From Candidatus Aerophobetes bacterium Ae_b3b (GTDB lineage: Bacteria; Aerophobota; Aerophobia; Aerophobales; AE-B3A): DNA of 59,586 nt. The stretch spans positions 1-59,586 of the forward strand of contig NJBP01000006.1 in assembly GCA_005223085.1 (NCBI GenBank). Direction: 5' to 3'. This document shows, one piece after another, positions 46,415 to 53,978 of this stretch; within the stretch, counting starts at the first letter, position 1; every line of letters begins with the position of its first letter. The translations under genes and the position numbers were made by a program. Under the pieces are notes generated by a model. It did no database searches. It had not been told where the DNA came from and saw only the letters and a list, made by a program, of their open reading frames with translations.

Positions 46415-47098
46415 TGAATTAATTGCTGTTAATTTGAGCTGTTGGGTCAAATAGTTTGAAATAAAGAAAAAACCACAGATAAGACTCTGTCGTGAGCTTT
46501 GTGATGAGAATCACAATGATAGTTCAGAAAAATAGACATATTTATTTTGTTACACATATCTAATCTCAGTGCTTGCACCTGGTTACCATGTTATCTTTAA
46601 ATGTTGAGCCGTGAAAAACCTGAACATTCCCCAAATTTTTACGTGACTTTTCCCAAGGCCCTGAATTCAAGACGCATTAAGAAAATAACAAAGTGGAAGA
46701 GAATTTTCTGTATGACAAAGCTTAAGACTTTAGATAGACCCTCGCCAAATTCCCAGTAAAGATAAGAAATATTCCTCATGACTTTTACAAAAGGGAGGAG
46801 CTGCAGAAAACAAAAAGACTAGCTTAGGAGATTAGATGAGCGCACAATCTTATACAAATGTATTGGTAGAGCTTGGTTTTTCCTAATTCTAGGGGGTCTT
46901 TCTGGAAAGGTTTGTCAACATTAATTAGAAAAGACGACAAAATGTCGTCAATTGACAACCTAAAGTATTGATAAAATAAGGATTTTAGTTCAGAGGAAAG
47001 TAGTGAATGTCGCACTTTTAGGCAGAAGACGACAAAATAGGAAGTAATTTTAATAAAAATTTCTTCGGGGCGGTAAAGGAAGCACTGTCTAAAACTGG
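46415..47098. other. Gene-free stretch with a palindrome
   Basis: About 680 bp of AT-rich DNA without a credible gene. It contains the palindrome GACGACA-AAA-TGTCGTC at 46933-46949 and one copy of a diverged repeat. The 102-codon minus frame at 47129-46824 has no recognisable content. Confidence 0.4.
46931..46997 (+). repeat. Diverged dispersed repeat, copy 1
   Basis: The stretch from AAGACGACA through GATAAAATAAGGATTTTAG and TTCAGAGGAAAG recurs, with many changes, at 48907-48979 in the same orientation. Confidence 0.5.
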
Positions 47099-47185: not shown

Positions 47186-47569
47186 CTAGTCCTGATCCTG
47201 ATCCTCGTCCTGATCCTCGTCCTGATCCTCGTCCTGATCCGGCTCTGGCGCTGCTGGGTCTTCTATCGCTCCCGGGTCTTCTATAGCTCCCGGGTCTTCT
47301 ATCGCTCCCGGGTCTTCTATCGCTCCTGGGTCTTCTATCGCTCCTGGGTCTTCTATCGCTCCTGGGTCTTCTGGCCCTGGCTCCGTTCCCGGTGTTGCCT
47401 CTTCCGCTGGTGCTGTTGCCTCTTCCGCTGGTGCTGTTGCCTCTTCCGCTGGTGCTGTTGCCTCTTCCGCTGGTGCTGTTGCCTCTTCCGCTGGTGCTGC
47501 GCCAGATATTGCAACGGCGGAACCAATTACCAGGAGTACAACGAGCCCTAATACTAAAGCTTTTTTCAT
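47186..47569 (-). CDS. Secreted acidic repeat protein
   Basis: The 127-residue product has a signal peptide (MKKALVLGLVVLLVIGSAVA). The rest is low-complexity: five APAEEAT heptads, a short linker PGTEPGPEDP, six IEDPGA hexads, then a tail built of DQDE units. Net charge is strongly negative. No enzyme domain is present; a role as an extracellular, perhaps Ca2+-binding or matrix, polypeptide is speculation. AAGGAGG precedes the ATG. It is the first minus-strand gene downstream of the c-di-GMP riboswitch. Repeat number is likely variable by slippage. Confidence 0.75.
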   Translation of the reverse strand: MKKALVLGLVVLLVIGSAVAISGAAPAEEATAPAEEATAPAEEATAPAEEATAPAEEATPGTEPGPEDPGAIEDPGAIEDPGAIEDPGAIEDPGAIEDPGAIEDPAAPEPDQDEDQDEDQDEDQDQD

Positions 47570-47869: not shown

Positions 47870-47995
47870 TACATACAAGTGAACAACCCCACAGCAAAGC
47901 TGTGGGACATCCTCAACTGCATGGATAACGGGACTCCGTCCCCTTATAACCCCTGCCATTCATCCCCTCAGCAAGCTGAGGGGTATTCTGGCATT
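47870..47995 (+). mobile_element. IS200/IS605-type right-end or omega-RNA-like remnant
   Basis: The segment has a hairpin CCCACAGC-AAA-GCTGTGGG (47890-47908), a GGGACTCCGTCCC stem (47937-47943 region) and a final CATTCATCCCCTCAGC-AA-GCTGAGGGG followed by TATTCTGGC. The CATTCATCCC-hairpin-GGG-TTCTGGC pattern is typical of right ends of IS605-family elements, which overlap the 3' end of TnpB-associated omega RNA. No tnpA or tnpB is present, so it is a solo end or remnant. Identification rests on remembered consensus. Confidence 0.5.
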
Positions 47996-48000
47996 TTTTT

Positions 48001-48037
48001 ATAAAAAAGCCCCTTCTTTTCTGGAGAACGGGCTTTT
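48001..48037 (-). terminator. Intrinsic terminator behind the c-di-GMP riboswitch
   Basis: On the minus strand AAAAGCCC-TTCT pairs with GAA-GGGGCTTTT around a short loop, followed by TTTAT. It lies 7 bases after the aptamer and is the likely expression platform. Confidence 0.8.
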
Positions 48038-48044
48038 GACGTCA

Positions 48045-48131
48045 AAGAGCTTCGGCAGCCTGGCCATCGTCTCTCGGCGACCCATGGCTTTGCGTCGTAC
48101 CCTTGCGGATAGTTTGCCTTTGTCGGCTCTT
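48045..48131 (-). ncRNA. Cyclic di-GMP-I (GEMM) riboswitch aptamer
   Basis: On the minus strand the outer stem AAGAGC/GCTCTT encloses the GEMM-I core: GGCAAAC, a stem capped by the GNRA loop GCAA, then GACGCAAAGCC, ATGGGTC-loop-GAC as the second stem, and the tetraloop-receptor side ATGGCCAGGCTGCCGAA. These match the class-I consensus closely, including the ACGCAAAGCC and GCCAGG-TGCCG blocks. A consensus promoter lies upstream and an intrinsic terminator directly downstream. The next gene on this strand encodes the acidic secreted protein, 430 bp away. ON or OFF behaviour cannot be read with certainty. Confidence 0.9.
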
Positions 48132-48194
48132 AAGAGACCAGCTTTTCATGCACACCAATTTCTATTGGCAAGAACTTGTTTCACCCTGTTTCAA

Positions 48195-48210
48195 TTGTAT
48201 TATAATACAA
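48195..48210. promoter_or_regulatory. Palindromic operator candidate, riboswitch promoter
   Basis: The perfect 16-bp palindrome TTGTATTATAATACAA covers the minus-strand -10 box. The identical sequence is at 48760-48775. Flanks are shared too (TTTCAA on one side, AAA on the other). Confidence 0.75.
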
Positions 48211-48226
48211 AAAAATTTTTTGTCAA
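48199..48226 (-). promoter_or_regulatory. Promoter of the c-di-GMP riboswitch transcript
   Basis: On the minus strand TTGACA (48226-48221) and TATAAT (48204-48199) are spaced 16 bp apart. Predicted transcription begins near 48192, about 60 bases before the aptamer. Confidence 0.8.
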
Positions 48227-48394
48227 GAGGAAAGTTTTTCAACTAAAAACTGGATATAGGTTTTGGCTTGCGAATAATCTACTTTTGGCCGGTGAGCCTT
48301 CTATTTTAGAAGAACAGAGAGGCAAAATAAGATAGGATTTGAAGATAATTGAGGAAACTGTGGTAAACTTAAAGGATTAACTTCTTTGCAAAGC

Positions 48395-48730
48395 TCAATT
48401 CGAAGTCTTTTGTTTTTGATATTTCGTCTTTTTTTGAAGAAAAAGAGCTCGATTCAAATCTTCCTCAGCGATGAAATTCTCATTAAGAAGAATTTCTCCT
48501 AACAGTTTATTTTTCCCCTCTTTTTGCTGGACTTCCAGGCTCTTGCTAAGTTCTTTATTATTCATACAGCCAATCTCACACAGTATCTCTCCCAGCTTCT
48601 TTCCCATAAAGTATTCCTCCAAGATAGAAAGTATCACAGCACTTTTGCTTTTTCTCTCTTTTCTTGCCTTGTCTTTGGCTGCATTAATTAGGTGCCTATC
48701 TTCCGCAGTATAGTAGATAGTGGTCTGCAT
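48395..48730 (-). CDS. RHH DNA-binding protein with tandem MshEN-like c-di-GMP domain
   Basis: The 111-residue protein starts MQTTIYYTAEDRHLINAAKD at ATG 48730, behind GGGAGA. Residues 1-41 match a ribbon-helix-helix domain: beta strand TTIYYT, then two helices with RKSKSAVILSILEEYF. Residues 44-100 hold two MshEN/GspE-N units: KKLGEILCEIG-x6-LSKSLEVQ and LLGEILLNENFIAEEDLNRALFLQ. MshEN binds c-di-GMP through RLGxxLVxxG motifs. Here the first unit fits with K for R, while the second has L for R and N for G, so binding is plausible but weakened. The -10 box of its promoter lies in the shared palindrome, suggesting autoregulation. Confidence 0.75.
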   Translation of the reverse strand: MQTTIYYTAEDRHLINAAKDKARKERKSKSAVILSILEEYFMGKKLGEILCEIGCMNNKELSKSLEVQQKEGKNKLLGEILLNENFIAEEDLNRALFLQKKTKYQKQKTSN

Positions 48731-48759
48731 TGTTTTCTCCCAGATATAATTATTTTCAA

Positions 48760-48775
48760 TTGTATTATAATACAA
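48760..48775. promoter_or_regulatory. Palindromic operator candidate, RHH-MshEN gene promoter
   Basis: The perfect palindrome TTGTATTATAATACAA includes the -10 box TATAAT of the minus-strand promoter of the RHH-MshEN gene (weak -35 TTTCCA 16 bp upstream). It lies 30 bp before the ATG. It is identical to the copy at 48195-48210. Confidence 0.75.
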
Positions 48776-48906
48776 AAATTCTTTTTGGAAAGCCATGGGA
48801 TGACCCTATGTAATAAAAGTTAATACTCTATTCGATAAAGAGGATTCTTGGACAAAGTCACCTTATGAATTCTTTTGTTTAGTTAAAATGACCTTGGCAT
48901 ACTTAA

Positions 48907-48979
48907 CGGGGAAGACGACAGAGTACCGTCAATTTGTAAAGACGAGTGTAGATAAAATGAGGATTTGAGTTTAGGGGAA
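48907..48979 (+). repeat. Diverged dispersed repeat, copy 2
   Basis: It reads AAGACGACAGAGTACCGTCAA, then GATAAAATGAGGATTTGAG and TTTAGGGGAAAA, paralleling 46931-46997. Its right end runs into the 3' end of the serine hydrolase remnant. Confidence 0.45.
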
Positions 48980-49418
48980 AATGGTCTGTAAGATTATTTT
49001 AGCAGGGGGAGGAAGGGTGTCAAACATATTCATTTTAGATATTTCTCCCCACGCGTCAATGGTAAAGCTAGCCATGGGTTTCCCTCTCCTGACATCCGCA
49101 ACCCGATCACGCCAAGTCACCTGGAAAGTGTCAAAATGCCAGTGTTTTAAGTCACCAACTAGAGCCGGGCTAAAATGGAGGACAAGGTGGTTTCCCTCAA
49201 CAGTGACCTTGATCCTGCCGTAGTATCGTTCTCATACGTGCCAGTCTAAGCGGCAAGGGGCAGCGTGGGTACGGTACCTGCCAGTCTTTCATGGACTCCC
49301 GGATGTACGCATCGAGGTCGTTGAACAGGCCCTCTTCGGCAGGCAATGAGGCGACAATTGAGAGCAGGAAAAGCAGAAACAGCAATGCGAACCTGATTTT
49401 GCATAATACTTTACTCAT
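48971..49418 (-). pseudogene. Serine hydrolase remnant lacking its catalytic domain
   Basis: ATG 49418 encodes a signal peptide (FALLFLLFLLSIVASLPA) and the usual mature start LDAYIRESMKDWQVP. The frame then shifts. Another frame continues with GTYEN, then YGRIKVTVEGNHLVLHFSP and LKHWHFDTFQVTWRD to a stop at 48971, a typical C-terminal DUF3471 domain of beta-lactamase-family hydrolases. The SxxK catalytic domain of some 350 residues is missing. It is a paralog of the genes at 49542 and 57329. Confidence 0.75.
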
Positions 49419-49541: not shown

Positions 49542-51116
49542 TCACTGCGTACGGACAAAACGGCCATTCCTTCCGCCAAAATCCAGACTCTTAACCAGAA
49601 CTTCATAGGCCCTGCCGTCACTACCGATATTAAAAATCATCCCCGAATTGGTCTTTTCATCTTTAAAAATATTCCCGTTCCAATGGGTTAACTTGTAGGG
49701 AACCTTATTGTGCCCCATGTACAAGGACAGCCCATGATTTCTCTCAACGACTCTGATCTTACCGTAATAAGAGTTCTCATATTCTCCAACGTAGCTAGAG
49801 CTTGGCAATCCGGGCGTTTTAGGCGAGGGGGTTTTTGGCAGATGTTCAAATGGATCCAATATCGATTCTACCAAGGCTTTTTCAAATTCTTCTTTCACGA
49901 TGGGCCACCAGTCTGTCTCATTCTTCCCGGCAAAGAACAGGTCGTTAAATGTCTTGGTCAGAGCAGTGTGTAAAATATGACCCTCCGGGAAGGCATTGGT
50001 CAAAATGACAATACCCACCTGTTCGGAAGGAATCAGAAAAGTGCTGGTACTGATACCGGTTCCGAAATCGCCTCCATGGTGCACCACCTTGTGTCCCTCT
50101 GAATAATCAACAAACCAGCCAAGCCCGTAGCAGGATAAGCCGTTATCTGATGAATGGATAATAGTCTGAGGCTTGTGAGTTTCTTTTAACGCTTCGACAC
50201 AGATGATCCTCTTCCCTTCAAAATCCCCTCCCGCCAGCTGCATGCGAACCCATTTGACCATATCGCTGATCGTAGAGCTGACCCCACCGGCCGGAGATTG
50301 AGCATCTGGTCGGCGTAAGGCCTGAGGAATCATCTTATCATTTTTCCGAACATGACCTGTGACCCTGTTCTCTGCTTTCTCAACATCGGCAAAATGGGCA
50401 CTCGTTGAGCTCATGTCGAGCGGGTTGAATATTCTCTCTGCCACCAAGTCCGACCACTTCTTGCTGACAGCTTTCGCGGCGGCTTCACCGGCGGCAGTGA
50501 CCAGAAAATTCTGATAGCCGTAACAGGACCGGAAACCAGCAATAGGTCTTTGATAACGAAGCCGGTAGAGAATTTCCTGACGGTCATATTTGAACTCCGA
50601 TTCCAGTTTATCGCCTATGTACTCGGGTAATCCGCTTCTATGCGACAAAAGATCCCGGATGGTAATCTGATCCACTACCCAGGAATCGTAGAGGTGAAAC
50701 TCGGGATAGTGGTCGATTACTCTTTCATCCCACCCCAGTAAGCCATCGCCAACCATGGAAGCAATGGTGGCCGAGGTAAAAGATTTGGATATAGAGGCCA
50801 GCTGAAAAATAGTGTCGGCGTCCACGGCCTCAGGAGATCCTACTTTTCTGATCCCGAAACACTTCAGGTATTGGACCTTGTCCTGATACACGACGGCAAT
50901 AGCCATGCCCGGAACACCACTTCGCTTGAATGTGCTTCTTGCGTACGCGTCAAACTGAGGCAGAATCTTCTTTACACGATTGGCATCTGCCTGCAACGAC
51001 TGTATGGGCGAGACATCACTCACGGAAAAGAATAGTAGTAACAGGATCCACGAAAGCGTGCACCCCAATCTTCGCTGGAAAGAGAAATTTTTCTCTCTGC
51101 CTTCAACAGTATTCAT
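49542..51116 (-). CDS. Serine hydrolase, beta-lactamase/PBP4* family, with DUF3471
   Basis: A 524-residue exported protein: a signal-anchor segment at residues 19-33, then the penicillin-binding fold with SISK (Ser108, Lys111), YQN (201-203) and HHGGDFGTG replacing KTG. From about residue 425 a DUF3471 beta domain follows (GEYENSYYGKIRVV). Such proteins are esterases, D-aminopeptidases or cell-wall peptidases, rarely true beta-lactamases, so substrate is open. It is one of several paralogs in this 10-kb cluster. Its promoter region (51117 onward) is AT-rich but unremarkable. Confidence 0.88.
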   Translation of the reverse strand: MNTVEGREKNFSFQRRLGCTLSWILLLLFFSVSDVSPIQSLQADANRVKKILPQFDAYARSTFKRSGVPGMAIAVVYQDKVQYLKCFGIRKVGSPEAVDADTIFQLASISKSFTSATIASMVGDGLLGWDERVIDHYPEFHLYDSWVVDQITIRDLLSHRSGLPEYIGDKLESEFKYDRQEILYRLRYQRPIAGFRSCYGYQNFLVTAAGEAAAKAVSKKWSDLVAERIFNPLDMSSTSAHFADVEKAENRVTGHVRKNDKMIPQALRRPDAQSPAGGVSSTISDMVKWVRMQLAGGDFEGKRIICVEALKETHKPQTIIHSSDNGLSCYGLGWFVDYSEGHKVVHHGGDFGTGISTSTFLIPSEQVGIVILTNAFPEGHILHTALTKTFNDLFFAGKNETDWWPIVKEEFEKALVESILDPFEHLPKTPSPKTPGLPSSSYVGEYENSYYGKIRVVERNHGLSLYMGHNKVPYKLTHWNGNIFKDEKTNSGMIFNIGSDGRAYEVLVKSLDFGGRNGRFVRTQ

Positions 51117-52041: not shown

Positions 52042-53190
52042 TTAATGAATAATATCTATTAGCTCCTGCAAAAAAGACTCATAGACCTCAACGTCTTCTT
52101 TGGCGCCCAACTGATTGAAGAATAGCACGATGGTAGTATCTGTTCCAGGATCATAGGCTATCCTGCCATAGTATCCGGTTGTTGCTCCGGCATGGCCGAT
52201 AAACCTGTCTCCTACCTTATCGACTCCCAGCCCATACTCGAATTTGCCCGGCAGTGCTGCTGCTATCTCAATCCAGCTCATCATCTCTTTATATGTCTTC
52301 TTACCTAGCAGCACCCCACGCCCCAGCGCTCTTGCCCATTTTTTTTGATCCTGTAGGTTAGAAACCATATTCCCTGAAGCCCCTAAGAGCCATATGGCAG
52401 GGTCGGTGGTCGCGTCGATTGTTGTACTCTCAAGCACAGCATAACCGTGTAGGTGATCTCCTCTTATGTCTGGTTGGGTTGCGAAAACTGTATGCCTCAG
52501 ACCGAGCCTGTCAATTATCTTTTCCTCAATCACCACCCCAAGATCCTTTCCTGTAACCTCTTCCACAATCATGCCAAGCAGCTTATAGTTAGTGTTAGAG
52601 TAATGCGCACCTTTGCCGGGTTGGTTATAGGGTTTATGAGCCAGTGATACCTCCACTATCTCTTGCGGAGACAGCCTCTTGGAAAGATTCTCTTCCACTG
52701 CCTTCCTGAAGACGGGATCATCGTTTTCTGCATCAAATATCCCGCTTGAATGATTTAGGAGTTGACGCACAGTTACTTTGCTGCCTGTTGGCATAAATGA
52801 CAGATACTTGTTCGCAGTCTCATCAAGCCCTATCTTACCCTCATCTACAAGCTGAAGTACCGCAGTTGCAACAAATGTCTTCGTAATACTACCGATACGT
52901 GTCTTGTCTTTTATTTGCGCAGACTGCCCTGTTTCTATGTCTGCTTTGCCCTTTGCCACGACCCAGGTTCCTTCGCCAGGAGCCCAAACACCCACAATAG
53001 CCGCCGGAGAACGCGACTCTTCCATTGCCTTATCCAGAGTCTTCTCCATCTTCTCCTGCGTTTCCCTGTCGAATTCTTTCTCTAGAGCCCAACCGGATAC
53101 ACCTAGAGTGAAAAGCAGTACCAGCATACCCCAAATGATTACAGAGGTAATCCAATGTTTTCTTCTTCTCACAATCCACCTCTTTTTCAT
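52042..53190 (-). CDS. Serine hydrolase, D-Ala-D-Ala carboxypeptidase/beta-lactamase-like
   Basis: The 382-residue protein has an N-terminal membrane segment (residues 12-33) and the catalytic motifs SITK (Ser101, Lys104), HYSNTNY (YxN) and GHAGATTGY (HxG). Length and order match class C beta-lactamase-like D-Ala-D-Ala carboxypeptidases of family S12. ATG 53190 follows GAAGGAAG and lies at the stop of the CPBP gene; the frame could start at 53229 but would overlap that gene. It probably acts on peptidoglycan or another envelope ester or amide. Confidence 0.88.
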   Translation of the reverse strand: MKKRWIVRRRKHWITSVIIWGMLVLLFTLGVSGWALEKEFDRETQEKMEKTLDKAMEESRSPAAIVGVWAPGEGTWVVAKGKADIETGQSAQIKDKTRIGSITKTFVATAVLQLVDEGKIGLDETANKYLSFMPTGSKVTVRQLLNHSSGIFDAENDDPVFRKAVEENLSKRLSPQEIVEVSLAHKPYNQPGKGAHYSNTNYKLLGMIVEEVTGKDLGVVIEEKIIDRLGLRHTVFATQPDIRGDHLHGYAVLESTTIDATTDPAIWLLGASGNMVSNLQDQKKWARALGRGVLLGKKTYKEMMSWIEIAAALPGKFEYGLGVDKVGDRFIGHAGATTGYYGRIAYDPGTDTTIVLFFNQLGAKEDVEVYESFLQELIDIIH

Positions 53191-53192
53191 AA

Positions 53193-53978
53193 TTATCTTC
53201 CTTCGGGTAGGCGTTTTCTCAACCCCCAAAAAACTACTGCCAGAGCGATAAAGACAATTGTCAATGCAATTCCGGATTCACCGATTACGTACTTGGATAA
53301 GGATGATGTCTCGGTGGTAAGCGGGTCAAAGAGTCTCTGGATATAAAGATTGTGACTAGCATGAAGAAGTACCGCTGGCCAGACACTGCCCGATTTTAGC
53401 CTTAACCAACTTATGGTAAAGGTCATTGCAGTAACTGTTACTACGAAAAGCAAGAGCTGAGGGGCCATTGGCATTGTCGCCAGATATATACCGTAAATGA
53501 TCAAGGGAAAGTGCCACACCGACCAGATTATGCCGGTGATCAAACAGGTTGCTGTAAAATTTGTCACCTTATATAACTGCGGCACTAAGAATCCGCGCCA
53601 GCCGATTTCTTCCCCTGAAGCAAAGGCTACGTTAAACAGCGTGCCTATAGCAATCAGTCTAAAGGGGTCAAAACGATAATCAAGATTAATACCCGCAAGT
53701 CCCGACAGCCAGATAACTGCGTAAGCAACGGTTGCGTAAGCAATGGGCAAGAAATACGCTAAGCCCAACCACCCCACGCGGCCTGGCCTCCAACCGATAC
53801 CTGATATACCTTTCTCATATATAAAAGAAGTAGTTATGCCTGAAACCCCAGGACACCACATCAGATAGAACATAACAAGGGAAGGATTAAGGCCCAAATC
53901 CTTTGAACGGACGATTAGATAATAGCCTATCAAGCTGAGAAGAAATGTAAGGATTACGTAGGTGGTGATTTTCTTCAT
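53193..53978 (-). CDS. CPBP-family intramembrane metalloprotease
   Basis: A 261-residue protein with about seven hydrophobic segments and the ABI/CPBP motifs: GEEIGWRGFL (EExxxR), WSVWHFP (FxxxH type) and HASHN in the last conserved helix. These residues form the glutamate protease site of Rce1 relatives. In bacteria the family often guards against bacteriocins or processes membrane peptides. It is tightly coupled to the S12-type hydrolase downstream and follows dacB. Confidence 0.9.
   Translation of the reverse strand: MKKITTYVILTFLLSLIGYYLIVRSKDLGLNPSLVMFYLMWCPGVSGITTSFIYEKGISGIGWRPGRVGWLGLAYFLPIAYATVAYAVIWLSGLAGINLDYRFDPFRLIAIGTLFNVAFASGEEIGWRGFLVPQLYKVTNFTATCLITGIIWSVWHFPLIIYGIYLATMPMAPQLLLFVVTVTAMTFTISWLRLKSGSVWPAVLLHASHNLYIQRLFDPLTTETSSLSKYVIGESGIALTIVFIALAVVFWGLRKRLPEGR

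Follow-up and report, generated by a model that had tools for sequence, protein, structure and literature searches.

Transcription factors that bind c-di-GMP are structurally diverse, and several of them were discovered one by one. As described in the available parts of the report on CdbA and CdbB of Myxococcus xanthus, an RHH fold and a c-di-GMP receptor can be united in one small protein, in which c-di-GMP is bound by the RHH regions that also bind DNA; those parts describe no MshEN domain, place CdbA on direct repeats at over 500 sites, and report no linkage to riboswitches (PMC7156744). MshEN domains are known from the ATPases MshE, PilF, and PilB, where two 24-residue motifs make up the fold (PMC5013675). 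For control of one gene by two c-di-GMP layers, tfoY of Vibrio cholerae is a precedent: it is controlled at a promoter by the c-di-GMP-binding regulator VpsR and by the c-di-GMP riboswitch Vc2, VpsR being an unrelated master regulator on other promoters of the gene (PMC7371385). The pili of Clostridioides difficile are controlled through a c-di-GMP riboswitch (PMC6837544), and an RHH-MshEN regulator is not reported in the parts at hand (PMC6837544, PMC6200980). Finally, tandem c-di-GMP riboswitches place several c-di-GMP-I aptamers near one gene, and a 2025 survey lists transglutaminase-like genes among the targets (PMC4759541, PMC12452182).

In this study, we analyzed a window of 59.6 kb, the whole stretch of DNA at hand, from an organism placed in Candidatus Aerophobota. 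It encodes a predicted 111-residue RHH-MshEN protein next to a c-di-GMP riboswitch. The protein shares with CdbA the combination of an RHH fold and a c-di-GMP receptor, and with MshE, PilF, and PilB the two motifs and the fold. In contrast to these ATPases, the MshEN partner is an RHH unit, and both motif arginines are replaced (by K and L). Unlike at tfoY, the gene for the predicted regulator is itself part of the riboswitch cassette or adjacent to it. Similar to C. difficile, c-di-GMP riboswitches precede surface or pilus genes, in the genome of the window too (GspE and PilT homologs), whereas, unlike the known tandem riboswitches, those of Bipolaricaulota have a regulator gene between two aptamers. 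A transglutaminase-like target gene is also present in a second Aerophobetes genome (G002:C75). In the open-licence literature on MshEN with RHH or transcription regulators, we found no published RHH-MshEN protein, an absence that is no proof, and no open-licence paper was found that joins either phylum name with c-di-GMP or riboswitches.

Architecture of the RHH-MshEN protein

The RHH-MshEN gene lies at 48398–48730 on the minus strand, as judged by homolog starts, profile matches, and the structural model with Foldseek. The homologs, gathered by sequence and profile searches, begin at the same methionine, M(Q/M)xxxYY, and do not support the upstream in-frame ATG at 48796 as the start. A scan of the genome contigs with a single protein query found none, whereas an alignment query did match. 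Pfam gave no match above the cut-off for the window protein, and neither domain was identified by Pfam alone; six of the 12 homologs gave weak RHH_1 matches (best E 0.0018). A profile of the 12 homologs matched PilF (6f8l, 1.5e-16), PilB (5tsg, 1.5e-7), and c-di-GMP-bound MshE (5htl, 5.6e-6).

Based on the AF2 model (pLDDT 84), residues 1–8 are extended and are followed by two RHH helices (residues 9–25 and 29–41), the strand and two helices expected of an RHH unit, and then by four MshEN helices. In Foldseek searches, the second half of the protein aligns best with MshE and PilF in their c-di-GMP-bound form (rmsd 0.7–1.2 Å over 52–56 columns, identity up to 42%); superposition of the model on c-di-GMP-bound MshE gives 1.0 Å over 53 columns. 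For the N-terminal half, the matches are CopG (TMt ~0.7), VapB, Arc, and CdbA. Because each half is short, no Foldseek E-value is below 0.1, with a probability of 1.00 for MshE and PilF.

The published MshEN motif, RLGxx(L/V/I)(L/V/I)xxG(L/V/I)(L/V/I)xxxxLxxxLxxQ, occurs two times per domain (PMC5013675). The window protein contains it twice, as KLGEILCEIGCMNNKELSKSLEVQ and LLGEILLNENFIAEEDLNRALFLQ, with K45 for Arg in the first motif and L76 for Arg and N85 for Gly in the second. In the motif register, the spacer between the motifs is 7 residues instead of the expected 5. Among 79 proteins, the MshEN ligand-site positions G47, L50, L65, Q68, G78, L81, L96, and Q99 are 95–100% conserved. Similarly, Q2, T4, and Y6 are nearly invariant (95–100%) across these 79 proteins, and we take them to be the strand residues that in RHH proteins would face DNA; RHH dimers insert this strand into the major groove. 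Collectively, profiles and model indicate an MshEN domain attached to an RHH fold, as the first-pass annotation had claimed; the profile matches to PilF and MshE and the model superpositions support that claim. With its separate predicted MshEN domain, the protein is not a CdbA-type receptor. The best explanation is that it is a small predicted transcription regulator composed of an N-terminal RHH DNA-binding unit and a minimal MshEN c-di-GMP receptor.

Riboswitch transcript and genomic linkage in two phyla

On the minus strand of the window, the RHH-MshEN gene comes first, and behind it lie a promoter, the riboswitch leader, and the gene for an exported repeat protein. The riboswitch noted at first pass is real: the c-di-GMP-I-GGC aptamer (Rfam RF03167) at 48050–48127 scores 61.4 bits, above the gathering score of 59. 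Directly after it, an intrinsic-terminator-like hairpin with a T run occupies 48003–48037 (minus strand, −15.4 kcal/mol). In folding, the leader can form a 7-bp antiterminator (48050–48032), though a weak one (−3.2 kcal/mol), and the terminator hairpin persists when P1 is forced open. The probable target of the riboswitch is an ORF at 47186–47569 (minus strand), starting ~430 nt beyond the hairpin, for an exported low-complexity protein of 127 residues with AEEATAP and EDPGAI repeats.

An orthologous locus is found in the Aerophobetes MAG G002 (NJBQ01000079, contig C104). Promoter, aptamer, and terminator are kept there, as is most of the ~350-nt leader (79% mean column identity), including a similar terminator-like hairpin. 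The G002 ortholog of the exported protein keeps the ATGAAAAAAGCT start and continues differently. The window leader also contains a hairpin-rich insertion of ~125 nt (47873–48000; CCCCTCAGCAAGCTGAGGGG and CCCACAGCAAAGCTGTGGG) that is absent from the G002 ortholog and resembles a small mobile element; its first hairpin was not found again in the other loci compared.

The surroundings hold further features. A 74-nt direct repeat (46931–47004 and 48912–48985, 73%) flanks the cassette; it contains the inverted repeat GACGACA...TGTCGTC, has TTGACA in its first copy, and recurs as a third partial copy at 47025–47039. Two neighboring genes, 49542–51116 and 52042–53229, encode exported serine hydrolases resembling beta-lactamases or penicillin-binding proteins, the former assigned by Pfam and the latter by sequence only.

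Searches of 17 Aerophobota and 100 Bipolaricaulota genomes recovered RHH-MshEN genes from 4 and 70 of them, respectively; the genomes are incomplete MAGs, and absences are soft. For Bipolaricaulota, we scanned 208 kb around 81 RHH-MshEN copies from 63 genomes at Rfam gathering thresholds and counted as linked a same-strand c-di-GMP-I or c-di-GMP-I-GGC aptamer at most 400 nt upstream or 500 nt downstream. A riboswitch lies upstream of 45 of the 81 copies (median 59 nt) and downstream of 39 (median 61 nt), on both sides of 32, and on either side of 52 (39 genomes). All 92 aptamers in the 208 kb are on the strand of the RHH-MshEN gene and none is antisense; in 88 kb of flanks, every c-di-GMP aptamer adjoins an RHH-MshEN gene. 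A typical order is promoter, riboswitch, RHH-MshEN, riboswitch, and next gene, with gaps of 10–100 nt. By a crude test, the ORF that follows the downstream riboswitch starts with a hydrophobic, signal-peptide-like stretch in 27 of 34 cases, against 26 of 62 control ORFs; three of the exceptions are another RHH-MshEN gene. Some of these genes carry Ig, PKD, DUF11, or CBM96 domains (Pfam). At one Bipolaricaulota locus (L151), two RHH-MshEN genes alternate with three riboswitches ahead of a surface-like protein of 1530 residues.

The order in Aerophobota is looser than in Bipolaricaulota. In G006, two c-di-GMP-I-GGC riboswitches share a 6.4-kb contig with the RHH-MshEN gene, and in G002, the gene is immediately upstream of pilT and pilB. 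A c-di-GMP-II aptamer right after the G006 gene (L036, 5203–5288) scores 42.7 bits, below the gathering score of 53.5, and was set aside as linkage evidence. In G000, the genome of the window, c-di-GMP-I-GGC riboswitches also lie upstream of GspE/PilB- and PilT-like genes (C6 24959–26842 and C9 2171–2977).

Collectively, these arrangements are best explained by a conserved cassette that combines RHH-MshEN with c-di-GMP-I riboswitches and with exported surface protein or type IV pilus genes. This cross-phylum linkage, found outside the window, is a stronger finding than the palindrome described below. The idea of the first-pass annotation that two layers read one messenger gains from the order of riboswitch and RHH-MshEN genes, which recurs in a second phylum; the palindrome supports it less well.

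A different account of the linkage is that the protein is chromosome-associated in the manner of CdbA and not a local repressor, riboswitch linkage reflecting co-expression with surface genes. In the available parts of its report, CdbA, an RHH protein that binds c-di-GMP, occupies over 500 sites with little effect on transcription (PMC7156744), and no conserved operator was found across the two phyla. However, c-di-GMP binding by CdbA overlaps its DNA-binding region, as far as that text describes it, whereas the window protein has a separate conserved MshEN domain, and the tight one-target cassettes suggest local control. We therefore consider this account improbable, the weakest of those weighed here.

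The palindrome pair as a candidate operator

The first-pass annotation had described identical palindromes over two minus-strand −10 boxes, and both copies proved exact. The 16-bp TTGTATTATAATACAA lies at 48195–48210 and at 48760–48775. The first copy covers the TATAAT (48204–48199) of the riboswitch promoter, TTGACA-16-TATAAT (48226–48199, minus strand; −35 TTGACA at 48226–48221), whose −10 begins 77 nt upstream of the aptamer. The second covers the TATAAT (48769–48764) of the RHH-MshEN promoter, where the 16-nt spacing is the same but the −35 is weak (TTTCCA, 48791–48786). In the 2.04-Mb genome (88.6% complete), the exact sequence has these two copies only, with an expectation of 0.0004 from dinucleotide composition, and the next best sites carry two mismatches. 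The window contains three perfect 16-bp palindromes, two of which are these copies. The inner 10 bp, TATTATAATA, form an ordinary extended −10 box that is also found at other promoters; the outer arms are the distinctive part.

The shared block is bigger than had been claimed. Both palindromes sit within a 39-nt direct repeat (family D5; 48189–48227 and 48754–48792, minus strand) with 87% identity. Its inner 25 nt, which include the palindrome and its ATTGAAA flank, are identical in both copies (TTTTTGTATTATAATACAATTGAAA on the minus strand), and the five differences are all found on the side of the −35 and spacer (p ~0.0035 under random placement). Over the spacer and the 10 nt downstream, the two promoters match at 23 of 26 positions, whereas the 253 pairwise comparisons of 23 consensus promoters from this genome give 8.9 ± 3.2, with a maximum of 19.

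This similarity is also what a copied or gene-converted promoter would leave behind. The repeat would then contain no operator, the regulator would act elsewhere or through another sequence, and the palindrome would be an accident of the extended −10 (TATTATAATA) with T-rich and A-rich flanks. The 87% identity of the repeat agrees with this reading, as do TATTATAATA-type −10 regions at unrelated promoters. Additionally, the G000 RHH promoter is closer to the G002 riboswitch promoter (20/26) than to the G002 RHH promoter (14/26), as expected if it was copied from the riboswitch promoter; such local copying would account for much of the identity. However, palindrome and flank are free of differences, all of which lie on the −35/spacer side; the RHH copy retains the whole palindrome although it lacks a good −35; and G002 has similar elements at three promoters that otherwise differ in their flanks. 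We regard duplication without an operator as possible, and as a less probable reading than an operator.

The view that the palindrome is an operator of the RHH-MshEN protein is supported by its position over the gene's own −10 and by the location of the sole other exact copy at the next promoter. Related elements are present in other Aerophobota. In G002, TTGTATTATA(A/C)TATAT, partly similar to the window element, is found at the RHH-MshEN promoter (TTGTATTATACTATAT) and at the orthologous riboswitch and adjacent pilT promoters (both TTGTATTATAATATAT), and related −10 regions lie at the RHH promoters of G006 (TTTGTATATAATATAATTGAAA) and G012 (TTTTTCTATTATAATATAC). From −35 to −10, the orthologous G002 riboswitch promoter has one difference from that of the window; it does not conserve the palindrome's right arm (ATATTAGAA vs ACAATTGAA). 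The RHH-MshEN and pilT leaders of G002 share a second element, TTTCAATYCCCATAAARGCAAACTA, shortly before the start codon (L037, C111).

Similar elements also occur at promoters of other kinds. Versions with two mismatches precede ZapA and LacI genes in G000. Elements of the TTGTATTATAATAT type lie upstream of Rex operons in G002 and, in G009, upstream of MarR and antiporter genes; no RHH-MshEN gene was found in G009. At these near-match sites (Rex, MarR, ZapA, LacI, and antiporter promoters), Rfam detected no riboswitch. Because of these matches, including those in G009, the TTGTATTATAAT element was rejected as a diagnostic of a regulon. The first-pass annotation had held that a palindrome common at unrelated promoters would refute its proposal; the exact form is absent from such promoters, and versions with one to three mismatches are present.

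Because comparable elements lie at promoters of Rex and MarR genes, another reading is that the palindrome is the operator of a Rex-, MarR-, or PerR-like regulator and that the RHH-MshEN gene belongs to its regulon. We consider it unlikely, as the exact sequence has only two genome copies, both flanking the RHH-MshEN gene. The Rex operator consensus is 18 bp long, which does not fit the 16-bp spacing of the palindrome, and Rex was set aside as its owner. Separately, MarR-type genes with a doubled −35/−10 block (TTTTATTATAATA and TTGTATTATAATATAT) were observed in G000 (L144, C31 4777–4836) and G009 (L224, C86 2108), which suggests MarR autoregulation at similar −10 palindromes.

In Bipolaricaulota, the regions upstream of RHH-MshEN genes show no enrichment of inverted repeats (17 observed vs 17.7 shuffled), although the strand residues Q2, T4, and Y6 are the same. 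A palindromic operator was sought in these regions and not found. Of the operator proposal, what stands is that the exact sequence occurs at these two promoters only; near-matches elsewhere and the lack of conservation in Bipolaricaulota weigh against it. Since the points for an operator have to be set against the near-matches, the Bipolaricaulota result, and local copying, we hold the palindrome to be a plausible candidate site for the RHH-MshEN protein, at somewhat under even confidence.

Proposed circuit and its significance

Sequence features and their uniqueness, domain architecture, aptamer, and genomic linkage are established here by computation. Tentatively, the most likely role of the −10 element is that of an operator for repression of both the RHH-MshEN gene and the riboswitch transcript. 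A dimer of dimers of RHH-MshEN would occupy the palindrome and block RNA polymerase at both promoters, repression being proposed because the palindrome lies over the −10. Binding of c-di-GMP by the MshEN domain would change this occupancy, and transcripts that escape the regulator would be read again by the riboswitch. DNA binding, the palindrome as the site, repression, c-di-GMP binding, and the sign of both layers are what we infer in this scheme. In Bipolaricaulota, where the regulator's own mRNA often carries the riboswitch, RNA control would sit above protein control. One signal may thus be read twice, by the predicted protein and by RNA.

On balance, and with slightly more confidence than doubt, we propose that RHH-MshEN proteins are the first transcription-factor family with an MshEN receptor, encoded in riboswitch, RHH-MshEN, riboswitch, and surface-protein cassettes in Bipolaricaulota and in rearranged form in Aerophobota, and that they form a nested circuit. 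If so, synthesis of the regulator would itself be riboswitch-controlled, and a single surface gene would be governed by nested protein and RNA receptors of one messenger. The c-di-GMP-binding transcription factors would gain a minimal, recognizable architecture of ~110 residues, an MshEN domain joined to an RHH unit. The conserved pairing offers a natural system for asking why a protein and an RNA read one messenger on the same gene; candidate reasons are ultrasensitivity, sign-sensitive filtering, and different affinity ranges. It also suggests that c-di-GMP controls surface proteins and pili in two little-known candidate phyla.
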